From Oscillospiraceae bacterium (lineage in GTDB: Bacteria; Bacillota; Clostridia; Oscillospirales; Oscillospiraceae), in contig SVKK01000004.1 in NCBI GenBank assembly GCA_015068425.1, forward strand, positions 36,587 through 100,586: a stretch of DNA of 64,000 nt, read 5' to 3'. This document shows, piece by piece, positions 14,242 through 41,432 of the stretch. Within the stretch, counting starts at the first letter, position 1; each line of letters starts with the position of its first letter. The notes under the pieces are model-generated. The model worked only from the letters and a program-made list of their open reading frames with translations. It searched no databases and was not told where the DNA came from. The position numbers were made by a program, and so were the translations under genes.

Positions 14242-14739
14242 TTATTTTGAATAGTATTCGTCCTCCGCCCATTTGGAGGGATTGGAGTCGATGTACCGGC
14301 AACAGTCGATATAATCGCGGTAATCGCGGCATATGTGTTCATAATATCCGCGTTGCCACAAGGAAATGTCGGCATCTCTGCTGTTTAGGCTCTTCAAAGC
14401 CGAGATTATTTTTGGCAATTCCGCCGTAGGGGTCGGACACCCGGCCGACCCTTGAGGGTTATCTATTCGCAGAATAAGATGCACATGGTTCGGCATGATC
14501 ACATAAGCATCCACAAACACATTGACGTATACATTCGGGATTGCTTGAATATGCTTTTCCACGATGCGTCCGATTGCGGACGGCTCTGCGCGCGGGCCGT
14601 CCGGGTGTACGGCCCCTACAACAGAAGAGAAAATGTTCGCGCGGTTTTTCGAACAGATGGTAACGAAGTAAGCCGCGTTAGTGCTGTAGTCAAATTCCTT
14701 CAATCGGAGCGATTTTCTATGTCGGATTTTCTCGCTCAT
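14242..14739 (-). CDS. REP-associated tyrosine transposase (RAYT, Y1_Tnp)
   Basis: 165 residues, HUH single-strand endonuclease/transposase family. The His-hydrophobic-His motif is in MPNHVHLIL and the likely catalytic Tyr is in RGYYEHICRDY. RAYTs act on REP hairpins next to a GTAG-type tetranucleotide, which is what the window's repeats show. It lies between hisS and aspS, with its ATG overlapping the hisS stop (ATGA), 29 bp before aspS. Two REP palindromes are embedded in frame and encode AVHPDGPRAEPS and QGSAGCPTPT. They fall outside the catalytic motifs, so the protein may still be active. Confidence 0.88.
   Translation of the reverse strand: MSEKIRHRKSLRLKEFDYSTNAAYFVTICSKNRANIFSSVVGAVHPDGPRAEPSAIGRIVEKHIQAIPNVYVNVFVDAYVIMPNHVHLILRIDNPQGSAGCPTPTAELPKIISALKSLNSRDADISLWQRGYYEHICRDYRDYIDCCRYIDSNPSKWAEDEYYSK
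14426..14451. repeat. REP palindrome inside the RAYT gene (copy 1)
   Basis: GTAG followed by GGGTCGG...CCGACCC on the plus strand. Same layout as intergenic REPs, and in frame with the RAYT coding sequence. Confidence 0.75.
14594..14619. repeat. REP palindrome inside the RAYT gene (copy 2)
   Basis: GGGCCGT...ACGGCCC followed by CTAC (GTAG on the other strand), close in sequence to the GGGCCGG REPs at 2575 and 57798. Confidence 0.78.
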
Positions 14740-16407: not shown

Positions 16408-16612
16408 ACATAACGAGGAGCCATCTCCGTGGCGCCGAACAGGCGCCATGGCGCAGCAGCGTCCTGAACGGAAAACGAGGGATGCACACTAAGGTTTCGG
16501 ATTTGATTATGTGGTACAATAGTTTTCCTTTTGTCGCAGTTGGGGAGTTTCCAAAGAGGGGCTTTCTGCGCCCCTCTTTGGTGGACTTTTCTTTCCATAT
16601 TCTTTTCGGCTG
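16408..16612. repeat. Long repeat L, copy 1 (divergent)
   Basis: Homologous to 52178-52410 and 57936-58167. The 5' hairpin reads TGGCGCC/GGCGCCA instead of GTGCTGCC/GGCAGC, with compensatory changes. It also has the CCAAAGAGGGG/CCCCTCTTTGG-type hairpin. The final CCATATTC palindrome is degraded. Confidence 0.8.
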
Positions 16613-16641
16613 CGTCGGGGACGGCGTCCCCGACGTCCCGT

Positions 16642-17100
16642 AACTTCCCTCCTCGCAGCATAGCTGCTGCGGTCGATGGCTAAAAACATGCCACCGGCAT
16701 GTTTTCTTAACGCCCCGACGTCGGAGACAACAATCCCTCCGTCTCGGCTAAAGCCGAGCCACCTCCCTTTGCAAGGGAGGCTTTGATGGCGGGAGCAAGC
16801 CCCCGCCCTACGAGGGGGCGGGCCGGCCAGTGTCCGGCCCCTACAACCGTTGCCTTGGGGCAGCAAATGTAGGGAACGGTCTTGACCGTTCCGAAATATA
16901 CACCTCATCCGACACGGCTAAAGCCGAGCCACCTCCCTTTGCAAGGGAGGCTTAAAAGGTGTATATTTGCATTTATTTTTGGGCGAAAGCCCAAGAAGAC
17001 TTGCGCTGCAGAAAATAATAAACGCAGGGAAAAGAGAATATTGAGCAGCGGGGGTTGTGAGGGGGCAAGGCCCCTTCACGATTAAAATAGGCTTATTTTT
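16642..17100. repeat. REP/hairpin array between the T-box and hisS (includes K copy 3)
   Basis: K-type module at 16642-16719 with GCAGC/GCTGC in place of GCGGC/GCCGC. Then CGGCT/AGCCG and CCTCCCTTTGCAAGGGAGG hairpins (twice), GTAG-flanked GGCGGG and GGGCCGG palindromes, and two short TTTTTGGGCGAAAGCCC hairpins (16976-16991 and 17096-17112). No credible coding sequence in 16095-17109. Confidence 0.8.
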
Positions 17101-17109
17101 GGGCGAAAG

Positions 17110-17335
17110 CCCAAAAATAAATGCTCTCATCCCTTGTATCGGGACGAGAGCATTTTGCTTTCGTGGTGCCACCCAATTTCGGCAGATTATCTGCCCTCTG
17201 GTTGTCTGCGCCATCTCCGCAGACTGAGCCCGCTCCCGGACTATCTTCACCTCCGCGCTTTCCGAAGAACTCTCAGCTATGTTCTTCTCTCTGTAAGGGG
17301 CATACGGGGGCTACTGGCTTCCGATCTATGCGGTA
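17110..17335 (-). promoter_or_regulatory. T-box leader, probable Asp (GAU) specifier
   Basis: On the minus strand the T-box core GGGTGGCACCACG is at 17162-17174. It is followed by a terminator, AAATGCTCTCGTCCC pairing with its complement and then ATTTTT (17112-17155); CGTCCC can instead pair with the T-box as antiterminator. Stem I has an AAGAAC/GTTCTT arm with GCTGAGAG loop. The specifier context GAA-GAT-A puts GAU at 17243-17245. T-boxes sense uncharged tRNA. GAU fits aspS in the downstream hisS-RAYT-aspS operon, about 1 kb away past repeats. Confidence 0.85.
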
Positions 17336-17352
17336 TATTAGCTTGGACTGTT

Positions 17353-17751
17353 TTATCTGGCCCGAACGAGCTCGCGCCAATCCAGATCTCCACGGCGGAG
17401 ACCCTGAATAAGAACCTCGGCGGTGGCCACATTGGAGGCGAAGGGAATTGCATAACGGTCGCAAAGGCGGCTGATCTCGTTAATTTTCTCCTGATTATGG
17501 ATATCGTCGGGGTCGCAGAAATAGAGAACAAGGTCTATCTCATTGCAGCGGATGCGGGAACCCATCTGCTGGCTGCCGCCCTGATTTGCGGAAAGGCACA
17601 GCTGGATGGGGAGGCCGGTGGCATCTGCCACAAGCTTACCTGTGGTTCTGGTGGCGCATATGGAATGGCCGGCAAGAATTCCGCAGTAAGCAATGCAAAA
17701 CTGCACCATAAGCTCTTTCTTACCGTCGTGGGCCATCAGTGCTATATTCAA
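17353..17751 (-). CDS. mgsA: Methylglyoxal synthase-like (MGS-fold) protein with altered active site
   Basis: 132 residues if started at the TTG at 17751 (MNIALMAHDGKKE), which has SD AGAAAGGA and gives the normal MgsA length; the frame stays open further upstream through the leader. MGS family turns dihydroxyacetone phosphate into methylglyoxal. Here the GGDQQ motif holding the catalytic Asp (E. coli Asp71) reads GGSQQ, and the ATGTTG phosphate loop reads ATRTTG. His8, Lys12 and CDP are kept. It may be an inactive or repurposed MGS-fold protein. It stands alone, downstream of the PBP2 gene and upstream of the T-box. Confidence 0.72.
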   Translation of the reverse strand: MNIALMAHDGKKELMVQFCIAYCGILAGHSICATRTTGKLVADATGLPIQLCLSANQGGSQQMGSRIRCNEIDLVLYFCDPDDIHNQEKINEISRLCDRYAIPFASNVATAEVLIQGLRRGDLDWRELVRAR

Positions 17752-17769
17752 AAGCACCACATCCTTTCT

Positions 17770-18064
17770 GAAAATATCTGTAGCCTGAGCAATATGATCC
17801 AAACCCGTTTCTGATGACATATGCGTCGGCATTGCTGCGTTGAACTCTATTGAAGGGCGAAAGCCCATCTGCAAGAGTTCGCCTTGCACTGCACTAGCAT
17901 ATGACCTCAGAAATCTGCGACTCCATGGGAGTGGATTTTTGTGTCAGGCAAAATTGAATTATGCAGGTGGGCTTGCTGCCCACCAAAGAATGAAATGAAG
18001 TCTGGCGCTAAAATCCGCCCCATGGAGCGGGTTCGGATTATATTGCTCAGGCTATAATAGAGAT
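17770..18064 (-). ncRNA. Three-way-junction leader RNA or palindromic element upstream of mgsA
   Basis: A 27-bp closing stem P1 pairs 18028-18054 with 17781-17807 (one mismatch, one G-U). Its inside edges abut two arms: P2 (18010-18027 with 17921-17940) and P3 (17897-17913 with 17808-17824). Only 7 nt are unpaired at the junction. P2 is capped by GGTGGGC/GCCCACC; P3 encloses GAACTCT/AGAGTTC and GGGC/GCCC. P1 ends just before the mgsA SD. I recognise no known family. It could instead be a MITE-like DNA element. Confidence 0.7.
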
Positions 18065-18093
18065 ATTCTATACCAGTTTTTTCAATATCGCAA
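18065..18093 (-). promoter_or_regulatory. Promoter of the mgsA leader
   Basis: TTGCGA (18088-18093), 17 bp, TAGAAT (18065-18070) on the minus strand. The predicted start falls at the 5' edge of the P1 stem, about 300 nt before mgsA. Confidence 0.55.
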
Positions 18094-18121
18094 GAGATAA
18101 TTAAGGAAAATTCATGCTGTA

Positions 18122-20233
18122 TCAGCGGAGAAGGGCGCTGTCGCTTTCAAGAGGGGCGGTGGAGTTTTTGAAGGAGAAGTAGTGATCCATAATCTGGCGG
18201 GCGATGGGAGCCGCTTCACTACCGGCGTTGCCGTGTTCAAGAACTATGGCAACGGCGATTTCCGGGTTCTCATAGGGGGCAAAGCAGATGAAAATACCGT
18301 TGTTGGTACGGTCTTTACCCAGCTGGGAAGTACCGGTTTTCGCGGCAACGGAGTAGGGAGCGGAGAGGAATGCTTCGTAGACGGTACCGTACTTGGCCTC
18401 GGTTGCAACGCCGCGCATACCCTGGTGAATGGCTTCCCAGTAGAAGTCGTAGGCATCGATTGTGGAGAGGATTTCGTCCTGACGCTCGTAGACGGTTTCG
18501 GAGAAATCAAAGGAGCGGACACTCTTGAGGATGCTGGCGCTGTGGCGATAGCCCTTATTTGCGATGGCGGCGCAGTATTCTGCCAGCTGGAGGGGAGAGA
18601 AAAGGCTGTCGGACTGGCCGATGGCGGCCTGCAGAGTATCGCCGGCGTACATATCACGGCCTTCCTTTTTCTGCATATACTCGTCGCTGGCCATAACGCC
18701 TATATCCTCATAAAGCTCAATTCCGGTGGGCTCGCCCAGACCGAAGAGCTTGGCGTATTTCGCCATAAGGCTTATCTGGAGAAGGTCGCCTGTAGTGTAG
18801 AAGAAAAGGTTGCAGGAGTGGCCGAGAGCTTCAACAACGTTCAGCTCGCCGTGGAGACCCTTACCGTAAATCCAGCACTGAGGCGCGTAGCCTTCATCTT
18901 TATACTTATCGAAAACACCAACGCATTCGATGAGGGTGTCGGTGTCTATTCTCTTTTCCATAAGACCTGCCATGGCGGTGCAGGGCTTGAAGGTGGAGCC
19001 GGGGGCGTAAACACCCTGAAGAGCGCGGTTGAACAGGGGGTCATACTCCGCCTCACGGATCTCGTCATAGGTTTCGTAGAAGTTGGCAAGGTCGAAGGCG
19101 GGCCAGCTGGCCAGAGCCAGAGGTTCGCCGGTGTCCACACGTACAACAACGGCGCCTGCGCCGGAGATGTTTTCGCGGTTGAGAAGCTCCTCGTCGCCGC
19201 CGTAGAGCTCATATTCCTTGCGGTTTTGCTCACGGAGGATGTTCTCCTCGGTGATATGGCTGTTGAGGGCGTTTTCGCAAACCTCCTGAAGACCGATGTC
19301 TATGGTGAGATAAACATGGTCGCCGGGAACGGGAATTTCCGTATAAACCTTGCTGGTGACAACGCCGTTGGCGGTTTGGGTGATGCGTGCTGTTCCGTTT
19401 TCGCCGTGGAGATAATCCTCAAAGGCGTACTCGGCGCCGTCCTTGCCCACAAGGGCGTCAAGGTCGTAGTTGCCCTGCTTGGCAAGGCGCTTATAGTCGC
19501 TTTCATTCATCTGACCTATCATACCCAGCAGATGGGAAGCATAGGTGGTTTTATATTCGCGGACGAAGCCGGTTTCCACGCGGAAGCCGGGGATGTCGTT
19601 TTCCATAAGAGTGGTAATAAGGTCCATGCTGGCATCTTCAACGAAGATGTAGTCAGCGGTGGAGAAGTTCTGAGAAAAACGGGCGTTTATCTCGTATCTG
19701 ATGCCGGCGATAAGACGCATTTCCTCGCTGGAATAGTTGTTGTCTATTTCATAACGGTCGCGCATATAGGCCAAAAGCTCTATAGCGCTTGTGTCTGCGG
19801 GGAGCTTTTTATCCTTCAGGTATGCGTTGAGCATCTCCGTCTGGGCGGCGGTCATATTGGTATACTCGAAGGGGGCTTCCATAGTTATGGGCAGGGTGTC
19901 GATATGGGTATCACCAAAGCTCTGCACCATACGGATAAGGCTGAGTATGGATGCGTTGGGGTCAACGCCCTCGGTGTAGAAAAGGTCTTCGATATCTATG
20001 AGGAGGTTGTTGCACTCCTTGTTTTCCACAAGCACGCGGCCGTAACGGTCAAGCAAGCTGCCTCGGGCGGCGGGAATACGCTCCGTGGAGGTGACATTAT
20101 TCTGGCTCTTCTGATAGTAGGCTTCGCCTTCTATGACCTGGAGCTTATAAAGTGTCACCATATAGATTACAGATATGACCACGACTACAAGGGCAAAAGC
20201 CAGCAGACGACCGGGTTTAATAATTCTGTTCAT
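18122..20233 (-). CDS. mrdA: Penicillin-binding protein 2 (class B transpeptidase, MrdA)
   Basis: 703 residues. One N-terminal TM helix (about 9-28), a PBP dimerisation domain, then the transpeptidase domain. Catalytic Ser is in APGSTFKPC, the SxN motif in GHSCNLFF, and KTG in VAAKTGTSQLG. It cross-links peptidoglycan during cell elongation with the Mre proteins encoded just upstream. Last gene of the maf-mreC-mreD-mrdA run. Confidence 0.95.
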   Translation of the reverse strand: MNRIIKPGRLLAFALVVVVISVIYMVTLYKLQVIEGEAYYQKSQNNVTSTERIPAARGSLLDRYGRVLVENKECNNLLIDIEDLFYTEGVDPNASILSLIRMVQSFGDTHIDTLPITMEAPFEYTNMTAAQTEMLNAYLKDKKLPADTSAIELLAYMRDRYEIDNNYSSEEMRLIAGIRYEINARFSQNFSTADYIFVEDASMDLITTLMENDIPGFRVETGFVREYKTTYASHLLGMIGQMNESDYKRLAKQGNYDLDALVGKDGAEYAFEDYLHGENGTARITQTANGVVTSKVYTEIPVPGDHVYLTIDIGLQEVCENALNSHITEENILREQNRKEYELYGGDEELLNRENISGAGAVVVRVDTGEPLALASWPAFDLANFYETYDEIREAEYDPLFNRALQGVYAPGSTFKPCTAMAGLMEKRIDTDTLIECVGVFDKYKDEGYAPQCWIYGKGLHGELNVVEALGHSCNLFFYTTGDLLQISLMAKYAKLFGLGEPTGIELYEDIGVMASDEYMQKKEGRDMYAGDTLQAAIGQSDSLFSPLQLAEYCAAIANKGYRHSASILKSVRSFDFSETVYERQDEILSTIDAYDFYWEAIHQGMRGVATEAKYGTVYEAFLSAPYSVAAKTGTSQLGKDRTNNGIFICFAPYENPEIAVAIVLEHGNAGSEAAPIARQIMDHYFSFKNSTAPLESDSALLR

Positions 20234-39711: not shown

Positions 39712-39762
39712 CAAAAACTCCGGTTGGGGGCTTATACCCATGACAGCTCTCCGCAAATATTT

Positions 39763-39912
39763 TTGCGACAGTCCGAGGGATGTTTTCCCATAGGACCAGG
39801 TATCTTCCTCAGGAACGGAAAGACCCTTCGGCGGTAAACCCTTTTGCTCCCGACGATTCCTGCCGTCATAAATTGGGGAGCTACTGATGTTTCCCGCGCC
39901 TCTATCACGCTA
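39763..39912 (-). promoter_or_regulatory. Lysine riboswitch (L-box) aptamer
   Basis: On the minus strand: GTGATAGAGGCGCGG at the 5' end, CAGTAG, then CGCCGAAGGG, and closing GGACTGTCGC whose CTGTC pairs with GATAG. These match the conserved L-box core in order. It is followed by a terminator hairpin and the transporter gene. Confidence 0.9.
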
Positions 39913-40025: not shown

Positions 40026-41228
40026 TCAGAGCTCCAGGTTTTTGCCGTCCTTGCCGAAGAGGTGGCAGACATTGCCGCCAAAGTCGAACTTGACTTCCTC
40101 GCCGTACTTGAAGCCATAGATGCCCTGGTCGGCCATCTTCATAGTGGAAACAATGATAACAACATCCTTGCCGTAGGCATTGGCATGGAGATGGATCTCG
40201 CTGCCCATCATTTCACTGACATCAACAGTGGCCTTGTTGCAGTTGACGCCGCTTTCGCTGAGGCGGATATGGTTGGGACGAACGCCGAGGGTGATATCCT
40301 GAGCCTCTACGCCATTGGCGCTGAGTCTCTTCTGCTTTTCGGCACTGAGCTCAACCTTCATTTCGCCGTAGCTTACATAGTAGCTTCCGTCTTCCTTGCA
40401 GAGCTTTGCATCGAAGAAGTTCATCTGGGGCATGCCGATGAAGCCGGCGACGAAAAGGTTTGCGGGATGGTCATAGACCTCCTGAGGAGTGCCGATCTGC
40501 TGGATGAAACCGTCGCGCATAATGACGATGCGGTCGCCCAGAGTCATAGCCTCGGTCTGGTCGTGGGTAACATATATAAAGGTGGTGTTGATCTGCTGGC
40601 GGAGCTTGATGATCTCTGCACGCATCTGGTTGCGGAGCTTTGCGTCCAGGTTGCTCAGGGGCTCGTCCATCAGGAGAACCTTGGGCTCGCGGACGATGGC
40701 GCGGCCGATGGCAACACGCTGGCGCTGACCGCCGGAGAGAGCCTTGGGCTTGCGGTCCAGATACTGGGTGATATCCAGAGTTTCGGCAGCCTTGCGTACG
40801 CGCTGGTCAATCTCTTCCTTGTTCATCTTGCGCAGCTTGAGGGGAAAGGCCATGTTCTCATAAACGCTCATGTGGGGGTAAAGTGCATAGCTCTGGAAAA
40901 CCATTGCGATGTCGCGGTCCTTGGGCTCAACATCGTTGACAAGGCGGTCGCCGATATAAAGCTCGCCTTCGCTGATCTCTTCAAGACCTGCGATCATGCG
41001 GAGAGTGGTGGACTTGCCGCAGCCGGAAGGTCCGACCAGAACGATAAACTCGTTGTCTGCGATCTCCAGATTGAATTCCTGAACGGCGACAACGCCCTTA
41101 TCGGTGATCTGAAGATTGATTTTCTCCTCGTTGGGGTCAACAGGAGCTTCCTTTTTGTTCTTCTTGCTCTTTTTCTCACCGGAGTTGGGGTAGATCTTCT
41201 TTACGTTTTTCAGGGTCAAACTTGCCAT
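40026..41228 (-). CDS. msmX: MsmX/UgpC-type sugar ABC transporter ATPase
   Basis: 400 residues. Walker A is GPSGCGKST, signature ALSGGQRQRVAIGRA, Walker B VLLMDEPLSNLD, and a TOBE/MalK-type regulatory domain ends the chain (DITLGVRPNHIRL). Such ATPases often serve several sugar importers. A lysine-rich insert (about residues 15-45, EKKSKKNKKEAPVDPNEEK) splits the first strand from the ATP core, unlike B. subtilis MsmX. Start ATG 41228; no clear SD. Divergent from the binding-protein/permease operon. Confidence 0.93.
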   Translation of the reverse strand: MASLTLKNVKKIYPNSGEKKSKKNKKEAPVDPNEEKINLQITDKGVVAVQEFNLEIADNEFIVLVGPSGCGKSTTLRMIAGLEEISEGELYIGDRLVNDVEPKDRDIAMVFQSYALYPHMSVYENMAFPLKLRKMNKEEIDQRVRKAAETLDITQYLDRKPKALSGGQRQRVAIGRAIVREPKVLLMDEPLSNLDAKLRNQMRAEIIKLRQQINTTFIYVTHDQTEAMTLGDRIVIMRDGFIQQIGTPQEVYDHPANLFVAGFIGMPQMNFFDAKLCKEDGSYYVSYGEMKVELSAEKQKRLSANGVEAQDITLGVRPNHIRLSESGVNCNKATVDVSEMMGSEIHLHANAYGKDVVIIVSTMKMADQGIYGFKYGEEVKFDFGGNVCHLFGKDGKNLEL

Positions 41229-41432
41229 AGTTCCCGGCTCTGACGCGCAGGCCTCCGCCTTCACGCATCTCATCCCCGGAGAGCGAAGCCCCGTGGGACA
41301 TTACGGCAGGTCTCCACACTGCCGCACCGCAAGCCGCTGCGGTTAGCTTTTTCCTCCTTGTATCGTCTCCGGCGGCTATGGTGATGGAGTAGCTCGGCGG
41401 AGCGACGAATCTTTTGAGCGCATACTGCGCTT
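41229..41432 (-). promoter_or_regulatory. Long GC-rich leader of the MsmX gene, class unknown
   Basis: About 200 nt between promoter and start codon. Includes the GCGCAGTATGCGC hairpin, an SD-like AAGGAGG near 41350 with no ATG after it, and several GC-rich stems. I cannot match it to a known RNA family. No coding sequence with a usable start is evident. Confidence 0.35.

Follow-up and report, generated by a model that had tools for sequence, protein, structure and literature searches.

A TA-ended palindromic element upstream of mgsA in an Oscillospiraceae bacterium is very probably a non-autonomous mobile element that often lands in front of Shine-Dalgarno sequences

The stretch of DNA analysed here (the window; 64,000 nucleotides of Oscillospiraceae contig SVKK01000004.1) carries mgsA, a gene whose product has an MGS-like domain (PF02142), at positions 17353-17751 of the minus strand. 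Alignment with a sister species, a congener, places its start at the TTG at 17751 and not at the upstream GTG of the ORF list. The Shine-Dalgarno sequence (SD) of mgsA, AAAGGA, lies at 17762-17767 (minus strand), and the next gene upstream, at 18122-20233 (minus strand), encodes a penicillin-binding protein 2 of the mrdA type. The promoter that an earlier note, made from the sequence alone, had placed at 18065-18093 (minus strand) was borne out: it matches the consensus (TTGCGA-17-TAGAAT) and is kept as TTGCTA-17-TAAAAT in the sister species. Between promoter and SD lies a non-coding sequence of 274 bp (17781-18054, no assigned strand) that begins TAGCC and ends GGCTA. The sister species retains both the promoter and the SD of mgsA but lacks this element, a comparison which indicates that the mgsA promoter is older than the insertion. 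Downstream of mgsA, a match to the T-box leader (17137-17337, minus strand; 75.9 bits, below the gathering score of 93) probably serves the aminoacyl-tRNA synthetase genes further on, and a T-box-like match was also seen near mgsA of a second species, G045 (L127:2220-2421). A lysine riboswitch (39736-39912) and a malK-I RNA (41223-41407), both on the minus strand of the window, scored above the gathering score.

The earlier note had described a 27-bp stem that closes a three-way junction, with two arms and 7 unpaired nucleotides, and our analysis reproduced it. An inverted-repeat search recovered the two terminal repeats, the left one facing mgsA (17781-17807, plus strand) and the right one facing mrdA (18028-18054, minus strand); they are 27 nt long, 93% complementary and form the two sides of the closing stem P1, the right side being supported by pair changes also. 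The minus strand of 17770-18064 folds to -130.3 kcal/mol against a mean of -77.1 for shuffled sequences (z = -10.07, with 0 of 200 shuffles as good), and in this computed fold the long closing stem carries two arms with 7 nt unpaired between them. The plus strand folds even better than this strand, which is the one that the earlier note had considered. From the fold and compensatory changes, arm 1 (17807-17914, plus strand) and arm 2 (17918-18029, plus strand), whose limits are approximate, are both imperfect hairpins; the tip of arm 1 is GGGC-GAAA-GCCC, and arm 2 is an inverted homologue of arm 1, the likeness of the tips having been read from the alignment. The two arms are alike in inverted orientation, which makes the element as a whole a palindrome built from palindromes, and it has no appreciable coding capacity. 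The earlier note had its 3' side end just before the SD of mgsA; instead, 13 nt separate the end of the element from the SD (17767-17762). It had also suggested an Rfam search, which gave no match to the element at E values up to 1 across 16500-19500 of the window, and in four relatives there were only chance-level matches, all below the cut-off; no curated family matches the element.

Searching with the element stretch revealed about 12 copies in its own genome (G000), at 79-87% identity, and more than 15 in the congener (G001). A profile search extended this to 68 distinct copies, complete and partial, across about 14 Oscillospiraceae MAGs including the own genome, all genomes examined being incomplete MAGs, and the limits given above were taken from an alignment of 37-38 copies. 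When we scanned for the terminal-repeat pattern, matches were found solely in Oscillospiraceae MAGs (ruminant gut), and none in IMG/VR; within the family Oscillospiraceae the element was present in 4 of 300 genomes and 3 of 106 genera, one of the four (G270) having the same contigs as G045. Complete copies measure 271-276 bp, a length that is constant down to 67% identity, and internally deleted copies occur down to a 51-bp hairpin consisting of the two ends only. Thus the element is short, non-coding and multi-copy within a genome, it has terminal inverted repeats, and, as described below, relatives have empty sites. We conclude that the family is new but its kind is known, being similar to ERIC, RUP and NEMIS, and that it is limited to a few Oscillospiraceae genera. 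Hairpins of 51-53 bp made of the terminal repeats alone were seen in G001 (L081:2278-2328 and L070:5-57), the latter directly 5' of AGGAGGTCATAAAATATG, again an SD. Two copies with identical flanks on one contig (L003 and L004, at G000:C38:5334 and 14405) mean that either a segment of the V-ATPase operon is duplicated or the assembly has doubled it. The right flank of L013 (query 2589-2632) contains a separate short and abundant repeat of the TTACGGATTGCCACAGCGGCTATGCCGCTTCGCAATGACGA type, which has dozens of matches in G001 and is unrelated to the element.

A test that the earlier note had named beforehand for a MITE was that relatives should have empty alleles with target duplications and that the site should not be conserved. 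To look for empty sites, we took the joined flanks of 15 copies and searched four genomes with them. Including the mgsA comparison, this identified six loci at which one allele is occupied and the other empty (L001, L007, L015, L019, L027 and L038), of which L007 and L027 give the weakest alignments around the junction. At mgsA, in window orientation, the empty allele reads ...TTTTTCG-TA-TTATGC... and our own ...ATATCTG-[TAGCC...GGCTA]-TAATAG.... Empty alleles were therefore found, as the test had asked, and the site is not conserved; a single TA is present at the empty sites of mgsA and L015, but TG at L038 and CA at L019. The ends of the copies read TAGCC next to varied flanks, and TA forms the terminus on the right in 50 of 56 cases and on the left in 41 of 47. 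As nearly all ends are TA, insertion probably duplicates a 2-bp TA target, and in the window the TA at 17781-17782 (no assigned strand), together with that at 18053-18054, is the probable duplicated target. We conclude that the feature is real and mobile. In G045 an element also precedes mgsA, but in the opposite orientation and behind minD rather than mrdA; it arrived by an independent event. By our estimate, two independent insertions at mgsA are about what chance would give for some 60 insertions and some 1500 genes.

The sites of insertion were not those of a plain MITE. It can be seen that the right end (window orientation), ...CAGGCTA, is very often followed by AGGAG and a start codon. 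After near-identical flanks, which are probably orthologous insertions, had been collapsed, 56 distinct right ends remained, of which 16 had a GGAG-type SD with a start codon within 0-3 nt, as did 3 of 47 left ends; the background rate of SD plus start was 1.4% of 4083 non-coding TA sites, a null for which ORFs were called mechanically, not taken from curated genes, in 316 kb of the same genomes. When TA was strictly required and element copies were masked, the counts were 15 of 50 right ends (P about 2e-16) and 3 of 40 left ends (P = 0.017). SD adjacency is therefore about 20-fold enriched over non-coding TA sites, and right and left ends differ (Fisher P = 0.009) even though the two ends of the element are near-identical. 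The preference is only partial, since about 70% of right ends are not adjacent to an SD. The suggestion in the earlier note of a MITE captured as a leader is supported by dispersed copies and empty alleles, but needs amending, as the sites are strongly concentrated directly upstream of SDs.

Comparison of L019 with the empty allele L185 revealed that the SD, AGGAGAAACGCCTTATG, was plainly present before the element arrived. On the other side of the insertions, the upstream ORF stops on the element's own TAG at L003, L007, L009, L110 and L132, and reading of the DNA at L084 indicates that a relA/spoT-like gene before dtd does so too; operons split in this way, with the TAG of the element as upstream stop, include V-ATPase F|A and atpA|atpG. 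The genes behind copies (recG, a trmB-like gene, a sugar ABC ATPase, V-ATPase A, purE, trpS, yicC, a PNP/UDP phosphorylase, grpE, a lysA-like gene, an ABC-F gene, secA, nrdR, ddl and queA; product names without a Pfam match are a reading of the translations) are ordinary and mutually unrelated, and the copies occur in both orientations. A potential explanation that would not need to invoke any preference for SDs is that the element lands on any TA and that insertions between a stop codon and an SD are simply those that do no harm. This would account for the TA at the ends of nearly all copies and for a mode of insertion that leaves both neighbouring genes intact, but the roughly 20-fold enrichment holds even against non-coding TA sites alone, and a preference for AGG remains in flanks without a start codon: N?GG follows 9 of 35 such right ends against 8% expected (P = 0.0014), which suggests that the sequence of the target matters, and not a function at the SD. 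We regard survival on its own as an unlikely cause of the pattern.

A search for an enzyme that might move the element followed several lines. No element with the same ends and an internal gene was found, and no pair of terminal inverted repeats at IS length, in the scanned genomes, the incompleteness of these MAGs limiting the negative result for a mobiliser. Lone terminal repeats were considered as ends of autonomous elements, and those examined proved to be truncated copies beside ordinary genes. Among the 14 element-bearing genomes, all incomplete MAGs, there was no IS630-type transposase, and an IS4/IS5-type mobiliser was represented by a single match to DDE_Tnp_1 in one of the 14. Y1_Tnp (Y1/RAYT) was present in 10 of the 14. 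The window itself contains a RAYT-like Y1 transposase ORF (14242-14739, minus strand; PF01797, 20.5 bits, just under the cut-off), which sits between two aminoacyl-tRNA synthetase ORFs.

The distribution of Y1 proteins allows that the element is REPIN-like and that Y1/RAYT transposases of the host genomes mobilise it as single-stranded DNA, and the near absence of the DDE families that were tried, together with a long hairpin built from two inverted units, would fit this. However, an element lies within about 1.2 kb of only 2 of 18 Y1 loci, while the other 16 have none nearby, so that the linkage is unconvincing; genomes with intact copies, such as G043, have no Y1 match; and the ends have TA on both sides and lack the GTAG head, in which they differ from REPs. 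In our judgement this is an improbable origin for the family.

In order to decide what the conserved structure signifies, we examined the pair changes in the alignment, a check for covariation that the earlier note had called for. Pairing is retained in 94.8% of alignment cells, and 52 of 82 pairs show changes on both sides; the both-side changes number 486 against a shuffle mean of 160, and 0 of 500 shuffles were as good. In P1, 10 of 18 pairs have both-side changes and 97% of cells are paired over 37 copies. The structure is thus strongly covarying, but the kind of departure from pairing tells against an RNA reading of it. A strand-specific regulatory RNA is expected to tolerate G-U far more than A-C. 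With four columns set aside in which G-U outnumbers every other pair, there are 57 G-U and 62 A-C departures; where the plus strand of a copy is the transcribed one, the numbers are 32 and 42. By arm, the G-U:A-C ratio is 14:45 in arm 1 and 29:5 in arm 2; this opposite skew fits arms that are inverted copies of one another, and the counts are not independent because of shared ancestry. As G-U is no commoner than A-C, we conclude that the conserved structure does not have the signature expected of a strand-specific regulatory RNA. There is strong, although not final, reason to think that selection on one RNA strand explains the pattern less well than a constraint on a DNA palindrome, or template-driven correction between the arms, would. 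A strand-specific RNA had been considered since the plus strand folds better in all of the first 17 copies; it was dropped when, at 38 copies, the preference was reversed in other clades, leaving the plus strand the better one in 23 of 38.

The earlier note had raised the possibility of a new regulatory RNA class for mgsA. A dedicated mgsA leader or riboswitch is ruled out by the empty allele at mgsA of the sister species, by the dispersed copies in both orientations and by the mixture of unrelated genes that they precede, and by no evidence in this analysis is the element a regulator of mgsA. A broader form, in which cis-regulatory RNAs of one genuine class spread as mobile leaders that control translation or stability and owe their SD adjacency to selection, is very unlikely: exact adjacency to SDs with one end preferred (16/56 right, 3/47 left), the strong conserved structure and the better fold of the plus strand in every copy tested from the own genus speak for it, but there is no theme among the downstream genes, G-U pairs are not favoured over A-C even in plus-transcribed copies, the better-folding strand flips between clades, the orthologous sites of the sister species are empty at every comparable locus, and right flanks without an SD share a similar AGG preference. 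Nor was a curated Rfam match, a conserved gene context or strand-specific pairing, by which an Rfam cis-regulatory RNA would be recognised, found.

Several known bacterial elements resemble the one described here. ERIC/IRU/RU-1 of enterobacteria is likewise a non-coding intergenic palindrome with terminal inverted repeats, target-site duplication, terminal TA and a stable RNA fold; it is co-transcribed with its neighbours, and an orientation-dependent effect on mRNA stability has been reported for ERIC (PMC2229807). ERIC is however 127 bp long (PMC2229807) and has a different host, whereas our element is about 274 bp long and forms a two-armed three-way junction, and its insertions, unlike those of ERIC/IRU/RU-1, concentrate directly 5' of SDs. 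RUP of Streptococcus pneumoniae is also a MITE with terminal inverted repeats, TA at its ends and TA as target, but it is 107 bp long and its proposed mover is IS630-Spn1 (PMC2229807), a type of transposase missing from the 14 element-bearing genomes. In length the element is therefore set apart from both ERIC and RUP. The Correia/NEMIS element of Neisseria is similar in being small and mobile, with terminal repeats of about 24 bp, terminal TA and transcription along with genes (PMC2229807), and differs in host, length and internal arms. REPINs/BIMEs with RAYT share the inverted pairs of related units that give a long hairpin, and the presence of Y1 proteins; our element differs from them in its much larger unit and length, its TA on both sides, the absence of a GTAG-type tag next to the hairpin and the lack of tight Y1 linkage.

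Taken with its copies in related genomes, 17781-18054 is very probably a non-autonomous, TA-ended palindromic mobile element of MITE-like type, with a preference for TA followed by AGG(AG), that was inserted in the 5' untranslated region of mgsA. The insertion would have come after this species and its sister had diverged, and would have separated the native promoter of mgsA from its native SD. The family appears to target TA and to have a marked preference for TA with AGG(AG) behind it; outside coding DNA such a sequence would mostly be the extended SD, UAAGGAGG. The 3' tail of 16S rRNA is complementary to UAAGGAGG, so that SDs form a natural reservoir of TA^AGGAG in non-coding DNA. We infer that the preference resides in target recognition. 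Insertion at an SD would be nearly harmless, in that the first bases of the element, TAG, can serve as the upstream stop and the last, TA, leave the downstream SD intact. The whole fold may be kept because mobility needs the structure, or because the arms correct each other. At mgsA, transcription would start near 18058, about 4 nt ahead of the 27-bp stem, and continue across the element into the gene, and the SD at 17767-17762, 13 nt behind the stem, should stay free. A hairpin close to the 5' end could slow decay from that end, as in other structured leaders, and a long stem that begins about 4 nt into the mgsA transcript might alter the stability of the mRNA.

MITEs that target TA are already known in bacteria, and the unusual part is the bias towards SDs; our literature search returned no report of a bacterial TA-target MITE favouring ribosome-binding sites, although absence of a report is not proof. 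It also follows that a clean, strongly covarying three-way junction in front of an SD is not necessarily a regulatory RNA, and comparison of G-U with A-C departures helps to tell a mobile palindrome from one. More tentatively, and with rather less than even confidence, we propose that the family targets the SD itself (TA^AGGAG, often at the stop/SD junction within operons), perhaps by means of an enzyme that reads structure, and that it forms a portable, translation-neutral insert in 5' untranslated regions that rewires operons and leaders across several genera. If so, it would offer a natural means for arbitrary genes to acquire long structured leaders, and for operons to gain internal structured spacers without loss of function.
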